Positions 14,779-48,940 of a stretch of 57,188 bases of DNA are shown piece after piece (position 1 is the stretch's first letter; each line of letters opens with the position of its first letter). A program made the translations under genes and the position numbers. The notes under the pieces were generated by a model that searched no databases, had not been told where the DNA came from, and saw nothing but the letters and a program-made list of their open reading frames with translations. The stretch comes from Marinisporobacter sp. (GTDB lineage Bacteria; Bacillota; Clostridia; Peptostreptococcales; Thermotaleaceae). The stretch spans positions 1-57,188 of the forward strand of contig JAOARP010000019.1 in NCBI GenBank assembly GCA_025210525.1, read 5' to 3'.

Positions 14779-14835
14779 TATAGTTAGAACGAGAAGGAAT
14801 TTTTGGAATTGTTTTAAAATTAAAATAAAAGACAA

Positions 14836-14920
14836 CGATAATAGCAAACTTGTTGAAAGACAGGGACGCAAAGACATGGGTCTAAGGTAGAAAATTACTA
14901 TGATTGCCAGTTTGCCGAAA
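14836..14920 (+). ncRNA. Cyclic di-GMP-I (GEMM-I) riboswitch aptamer
   Basis: Matches the GEMM-I architecture. GCAAAC (14844-14849) pairs with GTTTGC (14910-14915). A stem CTTGT/ACAGG is capped by a GAAA tetraloop and followed by the conserved GGGACGCAAAG. The second arm carries TCTAAG and TATGA around a GTA/TAC stem, a compensated version of the 11-nt tetraloop receptor (CCTAAG/TATGG). A terminator hairpin follows. It lies 180 bases before a chemoreceptor gene, a common clostridial target of this riboswitch class. Confidence 0.92.
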
Positions 14921-24195: not shown

Positions 24196-24221
24196 ATCAA
24201 TGAACCAACTATAAAATGAAA

Positions 24222-24475
24222 AAACGAGGACGAGAAGAGTAGATATAGGAGAGGCGTTTAAGCGAGCCGGTGATGGTGAAAGACCGGTACGAGGCCTGTA
24301 TTGAAGAACATCTCTGAGTTTCTAACTGAAATCTGATGAGAGTAGGCTTAGACGGCGAAAACCGTTATCTATTAAAAAGTATTTTGTACTGATGAGTTGG
24401 CCATTTGGCAATCAGGGTGGTACCGCGAAATTTAGCTTTTCGTCCCTATAAGGATGAAGGGCTTTTTTGATTGAG
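24222..24475 (+). ncRNA. T-box leader (Asn) controlling asnS
   Basis: A tRNA-sensing leader. The T-box sequence AGGGTGGTACCGCG (24414-24427) is followed by a terminator: an 11-bp stem (about 24434-24466) and T-run. Stem I shows the usual GGTGATGGTGAAAGACCGGTACGAG distal-loop area in pieces. The likely specifier is AAC (24307-24309, Asn), placed as AAC-A-TCTCTGAG; the same frame in the other two T-boxes here gives CCC and TGC. Uncharged tRNA-Asn should prevent termination. Confidence 0.93.
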
Positions 24476-43709: not shown

Positions 43710-43955
43710 AAAATGATGAAAGCTATGATAGGGAATAGTAGGTTAGATTAACCATTGAGAGAGCAAAGTTCATGGGCTGAAAGACTTTGTATGAGATATC
43801 TTTTCGAACCCACCCTTGAGTTAAGACTGAAACTCAGTAAGTCTTTACGGTGCTAGACCGTTAGATCTAGGTGAAGAGAATTCTTTTGAATTAATTAGAG
43901 TGGTACCGCGGAAAATTAGACCCTTTCGTCTCTAGAATGAGACGAAGGGGTATTT
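43710..43955 (+). ncRNA. T-box leader (Pro) controlling proS
   Basis: T-box sequence AGAGTGGTACCGCGG (about 43899-43913), then a terminator hairpin (CCCTTTCGTCTC with GAGACGAAGGGG) and T-run ending near 43955. The likely specifier is CCC (43809-43811, Pro), placed as CCC-A-CCCTTGAG, in the same frame as the Asn and Cys leaders here. The UGGU end pairs with A73, the usual discriminator of tRNA-Pro in bacteria. Confidence 0.93.
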
Positions 43956-44004
43956 TAATGAAATGATGAAAAAAGATGGGTCTATAAAAGAAAGGAGAAA
44001 GAAT

Positions 44005-45447
44005 ATGGCAAAGAAACAAAAAGGATTTGTAGAAGATATTACACCAATGGAGGTTGATTTTCCTCAGTGGTATACAGACGTTATTAAAAAGACAGATATG
44101 GTAGACTATTCACCAGTAAAAGGATTTATGGTTATTAAGGCATATGGATATGCAATTTGGGAAAATATCCAACAATATATGGATAGAAGATTTAAAGATA
44201 CAGGTCATAAGAATATGTATTTTCCATTATTGATTCCGGAAAATTTACTAAAAAAAGAAGAAGAACATGTTGAAGGATTTGCACCAGAGGTAGCATGGGT
44301 AACTCATGGTGGAGACGAAAAGCTTGCAGAAAGACTTTGTGTAAGACCTACATCAGAAACCATTATTTGTTCTATGTATTCAAAATGGTTAAATTCTTAT
44401 AGAGAATTACCTTATCTTTATAACCAATGGTGTAGTGTTGTAAGATGGGAAAAATCTACAAGACCTTTCTTAAGAACTTCTGAATTCTTATGGCAAGAAG
44501 GACATACATTACATGAAACGGAAGAAGAGGCACAAGAAGAAACACTTCAAATGCTTAAGATTTATAAAGAAACAGCAGAAGATTTATTAGCTATTCCTGT
44601 TGTAACAGGAAGAAAGAGCGAAAAAGAAAAGTTTGCAGGAGCATATGCTACTTATACAATGGAAGCGCTAATGCATGATGGAAAAGCTCTTCAGGCAGGA
44701 ACTTCTCACAATTTAGGGCAACATTTCACAAAAGCCTTTGATATTTCATACTTAGGAAGAAGTGGAGAGATGGAACATCCATACCATACATCTTGGGGTG
44801 TATCTACAAGATTAATTGGTGGAATTATCATGGTTCATGGAGATAATAGAGGACTTGTACTTCCTCCTAGAGTAGCTCCAACTCAAGTAGTGATTATTCC
44901 TATTGCACAACATAAAGAAGGCGTTTTAGATAAAGCTTATGAACTTAAAAAAGCTTTAGGCAATGATATTAGAATAGAAATTGATGATAACGAAAACAAT
45001 TCACCAGGATGGAAATTTAATGAATGGGAAATGAAAGGTGTTCCAATTCGTATAGAAGTAGGACCTAGAGATATTGAAAAAAATCAAGTAATGATTTTCA
45101 GAAGAGATACACTAGAAAAACAACCTGTTCCAATGGAAGGCTTAAAGGAAACAGTAGTAAAATTATTAGATGATATTCATGATAATATGCTAGAAAAAGC
45201 TCGTAATTATAGAGAAGAAAAAACTTATTATGTGGAAAGTCTTGAAGACTTTAAACAAAAACAAGAAGAAAAGCCTGGATTTGCAAAGGCTATGTGGTGC
45301 GGAGACCGTGAATGTGAAGAGCATGTAAAAGAAGAAACAGGTGCAACGATTAGATGTATTCCATTCGAACAAGAAGATTTAGGGGATAAATGTCATTTCT
45401 GTGGAAAAGAAGCAAAACATATGGTATACGTAGCAAGAGCGTATTAA
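44005..45447 (+). CDS. proS: Prolyl-tRNA synthetase, archaeal/eukaryotic type (ProS3), no editing domain
   Basis: The working ProRS, 480 residues. Class II catalytic motifs are intact: [15 protein letters not shown] (TxE), [21 protein letters not shown] in two parts (motif 2) and [15 protein letters not shown] (motif 3). An anticodon-binding domain and a C-terminal zinc-binding-like domain ([15 protein letters not shown]) follow, ending in the conserved tyrosine. This type lacks the INS editing insertion, so misacylated Ala-tRNA-Pro must be cleared by another protein. The ATG at 44005 with an AAGGAGAAAG site is preferred to one 42 bases upstream. T-box regulated. The ProRS-like gene follows. 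Confidence 0.96.
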
Positions 45448-45452
45448 GACAC

Positions 45453-45490
45453 AAGGTGGTTATATAAATAACCACCTTCATTTATATACT
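45453..45490 (+). terminator. Hairpin between proS and the ProRS-like gene
   Basis: AAGGTGGTTAT (45453-45463) pairs perfectly with ATAACCACCTT (45468-45478). The tail CATTTATATA is only weakly T-rich, so partial read-through into the next gene is likely. Confidence 0.6.
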
Positions 45491-45511: not shown

Positions 45512-47086
45512 ATGAGAGCATCAAAGCTGTATCTACATACTTTAAGGGAAGTGCCTTCAGAGATTGAAAAAATATCGGAAAAATTGCTTATTAGAGGGAG
45601 TATGATGAGAAAGGTTTCAGGAACTTATGCTTATTTGCCATTAGGATATAGAGTTATTGAAAAGATGAAGAGAATATTTAGGGGGATTCTTGAAAGAGAA
45701 GGACTTCAGGAATTTAGTATATTAGTATCAGCTGATGAAAAAGCTTATATTAGTCTTGTAAAAAAAGATTTGAAATCTTATAAGGAATTACCTTTTGGTT
45801 TTTATCAAGAAAGAACAGGAAAAAGTGACGAGGATAAAAAGGGAAGTATTTTATTTGATATGATGACCTTTGATCAGGACAAAGAAGGACTAGAAAAACA
45901 TTTTCAGCATATGCACACAATTTTTGAGGAAATGTTTAAAATATGTGGATTACATATGAAGAAAGTTTTAGATATCCACAACAACGAAGAAATTATATCA
46001 GGAAAATTTACTATTGTTTCTGATGAAGGAAAAGAAGAAATTGCTATTTGTAAATCTTGTGGATATAAAGCTGTGAAGAAGAGAGCTATGTGTAGTATAG
46101 ATTTACCTAATGAAGAAGAAGAGAAACCATTAGAAGATGTATATACACCTAATGTAAAAACCATTGAACAATTAAATGAATTTTTAGAACTAGAAGAAGC
46201 GAAACTAATAAAATGTTTATTGCTAAAGGGAGAAAATAAGTTTATAGCAGCTTTTGTTAGAGGAGATAGAGGGTTAAATTCAGCAAAATTAGAAACTGCT
46301 TTGAATATAGAACCTATGACACTTTCCTTTGCAGAGGGAGAAGAGGTAGAAAGAATTACAAGTGCTAAAACGGGCTTTGCAGGTCCAATTGGATTAAATG
46401 ATGTAATACTTGTGGTGGACCGGGAAGTAACAATGATGAAAAATGCTGTAGCAGGGGCGAATAAAACAGATTATCATATAAAAAATGTAAATTACGGCAG
46501 GGATTTTAAGGCTGATGTAATTGAAGACATTATTACCATTAAAGAAGGAGATAAATGCCCAAAATGTAATGAACCTATAGAAATAAAAAAGGGTATAGAC
46601 CTTGGAAAATTAAGAAAATTAAACACAAATGGTAGTGAAAATTTAGGAGTTACTTATATTGATGAAAAGGGAAAAGAAAAAAATGTGTTCATGGGAAGCT
46701 ATAGTCTTGATGTAACAAAAACCTTATCTGCTATTATAAATGAACATCATGATGATAATGGAATACTTTGGCCTTTTTCTATAGCTCCTTTTCATGTGAT
46801 CATCTCTATTGTGAATAAAAAGAAGGAAGAACAAGTTGCTCTAGGCGAAAAAATATATAAAGAATTATTAGATAAAAATATTGAAGTATTATTAGATGAT
46901 CGAGACGAAAGGGCGGGAGCGAAATTTAAGGATGCAGATTTGATAGGGATTCCTATTAGAATCGTAGTAGGCAAAAAAGCAGGAGAAGAAATTGTTGAGT
47001 ATAAGTTGAGAAGTGGAGAGGAAAAGATAGAAATTTCTTATGAAAAAGCTATTTCAAATGTGATAAAAGAAGTTGGTATAAAGTAA
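45512..47086 (+). CDS. Degenerate bacterial-type prolyl-tRNA synthetase paralogue with intact-looking editing domain
   Basis: A 524-residue relative of bacterial ProRS (usually about 570) that has lost its charging site. Compared with E. coli ProRS from memory: about 40 residues between motif 1 and the TxE loop are missing; GPTHEE becomes VSADEK (72-77); FRDE of motif 2 becomes SDED (105-108) and its RSREF arginines are gone; HIFQLGTKYS becomes KLRKLNTNGS (366-375); motif 3 YGIGVTR becomes YSLDVTK (397-403). The INS editing domain (about 210-330) keeps LIKCLLLKG (K234, at the place of E. coli K279), FVRGDRGLN and AGAN, and the anticodon-binding domain (about 425-524, LLDDRDERAGAKF) looks normal. 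It likely binds tRNA-Pro and deacylates Ala-tRNA-Pro in trans. It sits 64 bases after the editing-less proS, probably under the same T-box. Confidence 0.85.
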   Translation: MRASKLYLHTLREVPSEIEKISEKLLIRGSMMRKVSGTYAYLPLGYRVIEKMKRIFRGILEREGLQEFSILVSADEKAYISLVKKDLKSYKELPFGFYQERTGKSDEDKKGSILFDMMTFDQDKEGLEKHFQHMHTIFEEMFKICGLHMKKVLDIHNNEEIISGKFTIVSDEGKEEIAICKSCGYKAVKKRAMCSIDLPNEEEEKPLEDVYTPNVKTIEQLNEFLELEEAKLIKCLLLKGENKFIAAFVRGDRGLNSAKLETALNIEPMTLSFAEGEEVERITSAKTGFAGPIGLNDVILVVDREVTMMKNAVAGANKTDYHIKNVNYGRDFKADVIEDIITIKEGDKCPKCNEPIEIKKGIDLGKLRKLNTNGSENLGVTYIDEKGKEKNVFMGSYSLDVTKTLSAIINEHHDDNGILWPFSIAPFHVIISIVNKKKEEQVALGEKIYKELLDKNIEVLLDDRDERAGAKFKDADLIGIPIRIVVGKKAGEEIVEYKLRSGEEKIEISYEKAISNVIKEVGIK

Positions 47087-47227: not shown

Positions 47228-48706
47228 ATGACGGTAAGAGTTAGATTTGCACCAAGTCCTACAGGATTTGTACATATAGGAAGTTTAAGAACTGCCCTAT
47301 ATAACTATTTGTTTGCAAAACAAAATGGGGGTAAATATATACTAAGGATTGAAGATACAGATAGAACAAGATATGTTGAAGGTGCTATAGAGAATATGAT
47401 TGAAGCTCTTAAATGGGCTGGGATTGAGCATGACGAAGGAGTTGTCCTTGAGGATGGAAAGCTTCTTCAAAAGGGAGATAAGGGTCCTTATGTTCAATCA
47501 GAAAGATTAGAAATTTATCAAAAATATATTGATCAAATGATTGAAGATGGACATGCGTATTACTGTTTCTGTTCTAAAGAAAGATTAGAAAAAGTAAGAG
47601 AAGAACAAAAAGAAAATGGTCAAACGCCAAAATATGATGGTCATTGTAGAGACCTTTCTATAGAAGAAGCAAAGGAAAGAATCGCTAGTGGGGAAGAATA
47701 TGTAGTAAGATTAAAACTTCCTGAAAATAGAGAAATTGCTTTTTTTGATGTGATCAGAGGAAATGTAGTTGTTAATACAAATGATTTAGATGATCAAGTA
47801 TTGATGAAAACAGACGGGTTTCCAACTTATCATTTTGCTGTTGTTGTGGATGATCATTTAATGGAAATTACTCATGTTATTCGTGGGGAAGAATGGATTA
47901 TTTCAACGCCTAAACATGCTTATCTATATGAAGCGTTAGGATGGGAAGCACCAAAATTTGTGCATCTTCCAAATATCTTAAACAAAGATAGAAAAAAATT
48001 AAGTAAAAGACAAGGGGATGTAGCAGCAGAAGATTTCAAGAGAAAAGGATATCTGCCCCAAGGACTTGTAAACTATTTAGCTCTTGTAGGATGGAGTCCA
48101 GAAGACAATCAAGAAATTTTCTCTATGGAAGAGTTGATTGAAAAATTCTCATTAGAGAGAGTGTCTAAAAGTGGAGGCGTATTTGATACAGATAAATTAA
48201 ATTGGATCGATGCTCACTATGTAAAAGAAGCTTCTCTTGAGGAACTTACAGATTTAGCAATCCCTCATCTTATAGATGCTGCATATATTACTAAAGAAGA
48301 AGCTAAAGAAAAATATGAATGGTTAACGGATTTAGTAAAGCTATTACAAGATCGACTTTCCTTTGCCGGTGAAATTGTAGAAAAGTCAGATATTTTCTTT
48401 AAAACAGAAATAACACCAGAGGATGAAAAAGCAGAAGAAGTATTAAAGCTTGAGCATTTACCACATTTATTAGAAGTGCTTACACAAAAGGTTTCAGAAA
48501 CTGAAAATATTGATGAAACCTTTGGAAAAACAGCATTAAAAGCGATTCAAAAAGAAACTGGCTATAAGGGAAAAAATCTTTTTATGCCTATAAGAGTTGC
48601 ATTAACAGGAGAAGTTCATGGGCCAGATTTAAATCTGATGATGAAAGTTTTAGGGAAACAAAATATATTATCTCGCATAGAATATGTAAAAGCAAATTTA
48701 TTATAA
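47228..48706 (+). CDS. gltX: Glutamyl-tRNA synthetase
   Basis: Class I synthetase, 492 residues. The HIGH-type motif is in [18 protein letters not shown], the KMSKS-type motif is KLSKRQGD, and the C-terminal helical anticodon-binding region runs from about 330. The cysteines CFCSKE (about 116-120) and the later C/H residues suggest the zinc site. Because glnS is also present, this enzyme could be discriminating (tRNA-Glu only), but that cannot be read by eye. The ATG follows TAGGAGGAG. gltX-cysE-cysS is the classic Firmicute order. Confidence 0.95.
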
Positions 48707-48715
48707 ATGCATGGA

Positions 48716-48940
48716 TTAGGAGAGTAAGTTTAAAGCGCCTGACAGAGAAAAGCTACCACTGGCTGAGAGTAGCTTAAAGGTTAATTAAACCCAAATGCAC
48801 CTATGAGCAGCTGTCTGAAAAATAGTAGGAACAGCCGGTAAGCGCCGTTAAAGTAATAGAAGCTGAGGGGAAACCCTAAGCAGAGTGGAACCGCGAAAAA
48901 CCTTCGTCTCTGTATATAGAGATGAAGGTTTTTATTTTAG
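48716..48940 (+). ncRNA. T-box leader (Cys) controlling cysE-cysS
   Basis: T-box sequence AGAGTGGAACCGCG (48882-48895) followed by a terminator (AAACCTTCGTCTC with GAGATGAAGGTTT and T-run). Likely specifier TGC (48796-48798, Cys), placed TGC-A-CCTATGAG. The variable base is A (TGGA) rather than T: it pairs with U73, the discriminator of tRNA-Cys, which independently supports the Cys assignment. No clear promoter is visible before it, so read-through from gltX may be used. Confidence 0.94.

Follow-up and report, generated by a model that had tools for sequence, protein, structure and literature searches.

The gene at 45512..47086 (+) of the window, by which we mean the whole 57,188-nucleotide stretch of Marinisporobacter sp. 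DNA analysed here, encodes a short bacterial-type (P-type) prolyl-tRNA synthetase (ProRS) of 524 residues, in which the charging site is dismantled while the INS editing domain and the anticodon-binding domain are kept. We propose that this protein is a former housekeeping ProRS that now most likely serves as a trans-editing factor. The sequence shows that its synthetic site is lost, that its INS and anticodon residues are kept under purifying selection, that it is paired with a ProRS of the archaeal/eukaryotic type (E-type), and that it occupies the ancestral proS site. The protein would bind tRNA-Pro and deacylate it when it carries alanine.

The short ProRS is homologous over its full length to the Enterococcus faecalis enzyme 2j3l (E 8e-90), and domain order and location between ispF and gltX also mark it as a P-type ProRS by descent. 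Of the Pfam matches, that to tRNA_edit has 82.6 bits and that to HGTP_anticodon 67.6, both well clear of their cut-offs, while the synthetase core tRNA-synt_2b is marginal (32.3 against a cut-off of 29.3). Among the NCBIfam families, TIGR00409 matches 45512-47083 with 350.8 bits and NF006625 reaches 440.3 bits, below its cut-off of 558. The TIGR00409 cut-off of 306.7 thus admits a ProRS whose synthetic site is no longer usable, so that genes of this kind risk annotation as proline--tRNA ligase.

The INS editing core (PF04073) covers residues 212-327 (46145..46492, +) and keeps K234, G288, G291, P292, D303, G315 and H322. The invariant lysine and the G-x-x-G-P loop that mark the INS superfamily are thus both present, the fold being assigned by sequence only; a structure prediction with two input sequences, the window protein and that of locus L088, gave a mean pLDDT of 31.3 and was set aside. 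The codon at 46211..46213 (+) encodes K234, the counterpart of E. coli K279, the INS deacylation lysine; its replacement by alanine compromises deacylation by every INS family member that was assayed, according to the available text of PMC10164551. The anticodon-binding domain (PF03129) covers residues 429-519 (46796..47068, +). The features of an active P-type ProRS, namely the TxE loop, the Arg and Glu residues of motif 2 and the GIGxxR of motif 3, are missing. In the alignment VSADEK (residues 72-77; 45725..45742, +) stands at GPTHEE, SDED at RDEKRPRFG (remnant SDEDKK, residues 105-110; 45824..45841, +; RPRFG lost), and YSLDVTK (residues 397-403; 46700..46720, +) at YGIGVxR.

The reference for this contrast between the two halves of the protein is a set of 53 P-type ProRS of canonical length, namely the E. 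coli enzyme and 52 clostridial ones, columns being called near-invariant when at least 50 of the 53 agree; the alignment had grown from 15 to 19 short forms of relatives and from 22 to 52 canonical-length proteins, plus E. coli. In the window protein, INS retains 28 of the 30 near-invariant columns and the C-terminal anticodon part 25 of its 26. Far fewer are retained in the synthetic parts: 19 of 52 from the TxE loop to motif 2, 8 of 20 across the proline pocket and motif 3, and 1 of 11 in the deleted block that separates motif 1 from the TxE loop. The original prediction of altered catalytic signatures (TxE loop, motif 2, pocket, motif 3) beside an intact INS domain with K234 and an intact anticodon domain is therefore borne out; the deletion of about 40 residues that it described is real and measures about 33 residues, ahead of VSADEK, with a second, short one within motif 2.

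The same pattern extends to the 20 short forms aligned. The share of near-invariant cells kept is 0.85 in INS and 0.88 in the anticodon part, compared with 0.54 in the motif 1 region (residues 1-72), 0.26 from the TxE loop to motif 2, 0.04 in the deleted block and 0.30 in the pocket and motif 3. T257, P258, I263, K279, G336, G339, P340, D350, G362, H369 and D378 (E. coli numbers) are kept in all 20, as are D510, D511, R512 and four cysteines; a loss of INS catalytic residues, which the prediction had named as a refutation, is thus not seen, with K279, P340, D350 and H369 in every short form. Not one of the synthetic near-invariant columns (52 in the core, 11 in the block, 20 in the pocket and motif 3) is kept throughout. 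Furthermore, in a Pfam scan of eight related short proteins, tRNA_edit and HGTP_anticodon scored over cut-off in all eight and the synthetase core in two.

The gene just upstream, at 43963..45447 (+), is an E-type proS (TIGR00408, 627.4 bits, cut-off 437) in which Pfam finds no tRNA_edit match; it agrees with the predicted archaeal-type ProRS lacking INS and is presumed to be the sole charging enzyme. It is 91-97% identical in the three other genus members. The rest of the window's genome, which is 98% complete, yielded no canonical bacterial ProRS, as had also been expected. We searched 98 genomes of relatives, the window's own included, taking a best E below 1e-70 as a P-type match. P-type ProRS occurs in 46 of them; in 16 it is short, and in 30 its open frame has canonical length, 23 of these 30 being aligned. 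The short forms are spread over five families within the order. They occur in each of the four genus members searched (G000-G003), in three further genomes of the same family (G004, G007, G013), and outside it in five genomes of family f6 together with G033, G037, G088 and G093.

In a search of the class, 178 of 391 genomes matched the profile at E 1e-70 and, among the matches listed, further short forms appeared only in family f31 (G175, G224, G246, G376). This brings the count in the sampled Clostridia to at least 20, 16 among the relatives and four in f31. In the phylum, 302 of 398 genomes matched, and among the matches listed, about half of the rows, no protein but that of the window began at position 1 of the profile; short forms that have diverged further may lie beyond the matches listed. 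When genome contigs were searched, the window protein by itself led to no confirmed relative, and a four-row alignment led to one Marinisporobacter MAG.

The predicted co-occurrence with E-type ProRS is observed. Among the 98 relatives, E-type ProRS is present in 16 of 16 genomes with a short form versus 5 of 30 with a canonical-length P-type enzyme (Fisher 2e-8, a value that ignores kinship; the association amounts to two or three independent pairs, too few for a kinship-corrected test). With f31 included it is present in 19 of 20, the exception being the 86% complete assembly G376. A P-type protein over the NF006625 cut-off besides the short form is found in one of the 20 genomes, G224, which has three proS genes: the short form, an E-type gene, and a divergent P-type ProRS (L093:3607-5316, +) with P340A in the INS loop. 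A pairing of that short form with a P-type enzyme of broken INS was considered and is not claimed, as it turns on the single P340A and an E-type ProRS is present too.

Gene order gives an indication of where the short gene came from. Within the window's family, the three genomes with P-type ProRS only (G006, G009, G011) all read ispD-ispF-proS(canonical)-gltX, the two with both types (G005, G008) read ispF-proS(E)-proS(canonical)-gltX, and the window and G001-G004 read ispF-proS(E)-proS(short)-gltX. The short gene precedes gltX in G007 and G013 as well, with the E-type gene elsewhere, and four genomes (G010, G012, G014, G015) have the E-type only. Outside the family, G088, G093 and G037 share the gene order of the window, and all five f6 genomes read short-gltX-cysE-cysS. 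In all four f31 genomes the short gene directly follows ispF; it stands before cysS in three, and the contig of the fourth ends. Around the short gene of G033, neither ispF, gltX, cysE, cysS nor an E-type neighbour was found. Since the short gene lies mostly at the ancestral proS site, it looks like a displaced housekeeping ProRS rather than a spare copy, so that "paralogue", the term of the original prediction, fits the gene order less well than displaced original proS. The genomes of the window's family show the steps of a replacement at one chromosomal place. In G008 the canonical-length P-type protein beside the E-type gene (L055:5439-7163, -) carries R151D, F415R and G447E, and may represent an early stage of synthetic-site decay.

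How often this happened is less certain. A tree of 73 rows needs four changes, and on the same rows one shared origin for the 20 short forms is not rejected (p-AU 0.141). Once three distant canonical rows and the four short rows on long branches are removed, leaving 16 short rows, a single origin is rejected (p-AU 0.012), and groupings give 0.0115 for f1 with f31, 0.40 for f1 with f6 and 0.186 for f31 with f6, all these reduced-set tests resting on a quick tree with groups chosen after the first tree had been seen. As the single-origin tests conflict, the number of origins is between one and four.

We suggest the following scenario. An archaeal-type ProRS without editing domain would have been gained beside the bacterial ProRS and would have taken over charging; the old bacterial enzyme would then have lost its synthetic site and kept INS and the anticodon domain. 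The latter would recognise tRNA-Pro by G35/G36, and INS would take the acceptor end and hydrolyse the Ala-tRNA-Pro made by the E-type enzyme. The available text of PMC3973320 describes that INS of E. coli ProRS has no tRNA specificity of its own and needs recognition of G35/G36 by the anticodon domain, not of the acceptor stem. As it keeps both domains, the short protein holds what the E. coli enzyme needs for selective editing of Ala-tRNA-Pro. R144, which in E. coli ProRS contacts G72 (PMC10164551, available part), is lost in 15 of the 20 short forms. Out of 14 pattern matches, four tRNA-Pro genes were aligned; they come from three genomes (that of the window, G002 and G088) and, with C1, G72 and A73, conform to the bacterial type. 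We lean towards the fuller account in which a synthetase was demoted, perhaps repeatedly, to an anticodon-guided two-domain trans-editor after the arrival of an archaeal-type ProRS, with charger and proofreader of different ancestry, the short ProRS being the sole INS protein found in several genomes and many carriers having the two genes side by side behind a proline T-box.

The strongest competitor, though an unlikely one, is an editing factor for another substrate (e.g. Abu-, Cys- or Ser-tRNA-Pro), with alanine left to a ProXp-ala-like pair. It draws on the window's own genome, which encodes four INS-superfamily proteins: the short ProRS, two ProXp-ala-like proteins, and one ProXp-x-like protein. 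L004 (L004:441-1004, -) and L005 (L005:1456-1953, -), on contigs C31 and C42, match ProXp-ala 5vxb at 1e-16 and 3e-28. L006, the ProXp-x-like protein, has as its best match 2cx5, a ProXp-x structure according to the available text of PMC11295145. In this genome the absence of ProXp-ala that had been expected is thus contradicted, and Ala-tRNA-Pro editing by the short ProRS would be redundant. G001, G013, G020, G031, G037, G042 and G067 likewise combine the short form with one or more further INS proteins.

Against another substrate stand eight of the 16 carriers among the relatives: no PF04073 protein was found in them besides the short ProRS, which would thus be the sole alanine candidate there. 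All eight of these proteins match PF04073 themselves, and the situation is seen in five of the 13 genomes at least 90% complete, among them the single-contig G002. I263 and L266, which we take to be part of the Ala pocket, are kept in 20 and 18 of the 20 short forms. In 3 of the 48 E-type-only relatives (G016, G022, G082) the search found no INS protein, so editing can be dispensed with; the comparison of 8 of 16 carriers with 3 of 48 gives a Fisher value of 3e-4, which again ignores kinship. The predicted split of labour, one protein charging and the other editing in trans, is accordingly supported in part, by the dismantled site, the selection on INS and anticodon domain, the E-type partner, the failure to find a canonical copy in the genome and the recurrence of the arrangement, and is weakened by the ProXp-ala-like proteins of the window genome.

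A second alternative, less likely again, is that the short ProRS is a non-catalytic tRNA-Pro binder (a regulator of the T-box pair, a starvation sensor or a partner of the E-type enzyme) with INS as a fold only. Its appeal lies in the position of the gene, behind the E-type proS and a T-box leader (43716..43936, +; Rfam RF00230, 119.9 bits). The triplet after GAA, which is presumably the specifier place, is CCC (Pro) at 43809-43811, and the same place holds CCC, CCT or CCA, all proline codons, in the ten T-boxes aligned; the specifier would be a proline codon. Of the predicted single proline T-box for both genes, the T-box itself with its CCC triplet is found upstream, and a common transcript appears plausible. 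Between the two genes lies a hairpin (45453..45478, +; 11-bp stem, no clear U-tract; -14.4 kcal/mol, z -3.9), a possible attenuator or processing site. The window holds two more T-box leaders, at 24218-24450 and at 48703-48914, the latter before a cysE-cysS pair, as well as a c-di-GMP-I riboswitch aptamer at 14833-14919 (82.8 bits).

Synthetase-like proteins with non-charging functions do exist, as the available text of PMC9437257 illustrates. However, the lysine K279, the GxxGP loop, D350 and H369 are invariant in the 20 short forms, and neither a fold nor binding needs any of them. Moreover, the gene is not adjacent to an E-type gene in G007, G013, G020, G042, G067 and all four f31 genomes, where the stretch directly upstream gave no T-box above the gathering score either.

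Decay into a pseudogene, which the original prediction had named as a possible refutation, is very improbable. The short gene does evolve faster than its neighbours, with 68-84% identity in the genus versus 91-97% for gltX and the E-type proS, and the short form of G037 (L051:2309-3802, +) has an in-frame TAA near the C-terminus, reflecting truncation, decay or a sequencing error. However, whole-gene dN/dS (NG86) is 0.15-0.29 in all seven short-form pairs, which argues against a pseudogene, and 19 of the 20 short forms have no internal stop. Constraint is also uneven by domain: between the window protein and three genus members, dN/dS is 0.13-0.17 for INS, 0.12-0.21 for the anticodon domain and 0.18-0.46 for the two synthetic remnants, although the farthest pair (dS about 1, saturated) departs from this order, with 0.18 for the N-terminal remnant and 0.21 for the anticodon domain. 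That the protein still charges proline through an unusual active site is the least credible reading of all, since its scores over the TIGR00409 and Pfam core cut-offs are set against the loss, in different ways per lineage, of the TxE loop, motif 2 arginines, pocket and motif 3 glycines, and against six of eight related short proteins with no core match over cut-off.

The trans-editing factor proposed here can be compared with several known systems, the papers concerned being cited for the parts of their text that were available. P-type ProRS with INS (E. coli, E. faecalis 2j3l) share with it full-length homology, domain order and the INS catalytic residues, but not the dismantled site and the deleted block. 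In Streptomyces, ProRSx is likewise a second ProRS-derived gene with a function of its own; it charges Pro onto a tRNA with an Ala anticodon (PMC9437257), whereas the short ProRS is not expected to charge. For C. difficile an annotated pair of neighbouring proS genes is described, of which proS1 is essential and proS2 is not (PMC12548448).

ProXp-ala and PrdX belong to the same INS superfamily, share the expected activity on Ala-tRNA-Pro, and likewise occur beside a ProRS without working INS. However, ProXp-ala is a small INS-only protein that recognises the acceptor stem (C1:G72/A73; PMC10164551), whereas here INS is embedded in a 524-residue protein that keeps an anticodon domain, and R144 is lost in most of the short forms. 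The prediction had described known trans-editors as small single-domain proteins. This stands for the INS families, except for plant ProXp-ala with its C-terminal domain and ProXp-ala-ProRS fusions in some protists, and does not extend to the archaeal editor ThrRS-ed (PMC11295145). Among the open PMC papers listed in the searches, none was found to describe a ProRS-derived editor with an anticodon domain.

The closest parallel is indeed ThrRS-ed, the archaeal Ser-tRNA-Thr hydrolase (NF011500/PRK14938), in which a freestanding protein with editing and anticodon domains works in trans to a charging-only synthetase (PMC11295145, PMC7373986, available parts). The short ProRS shows the same combination, as read from its residues: an editing and an anticodon domain, a synthetic site that is not functional, and a separate charging-only enzyme for the same amino acid. 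It is not a ThrRS-ed proper; no NF011500 match was seen at E 0.001, and its best families are ProRS. Its natural separation of function, INS and anticodon domain without charging, would give direct access to how INS, some 70 A away, is guided by the anticodon domain, an open question according to the available text of PMC3973320. If our reading is true, Bacteria gain a counterpart of ThrRS-ed within the INS superfamily and translation quality control a new kind of division of labour. ThrRS-ed acts on threonine in Archaea with a different editing fold; the short ProRS would act on proline in Bacteria with the INS fold, and unlike ThrRS-ed it keeps a partial synthetic domain, the editor being the displaced P-type enzyme and the charger, of E-type, coming from another ancestry.
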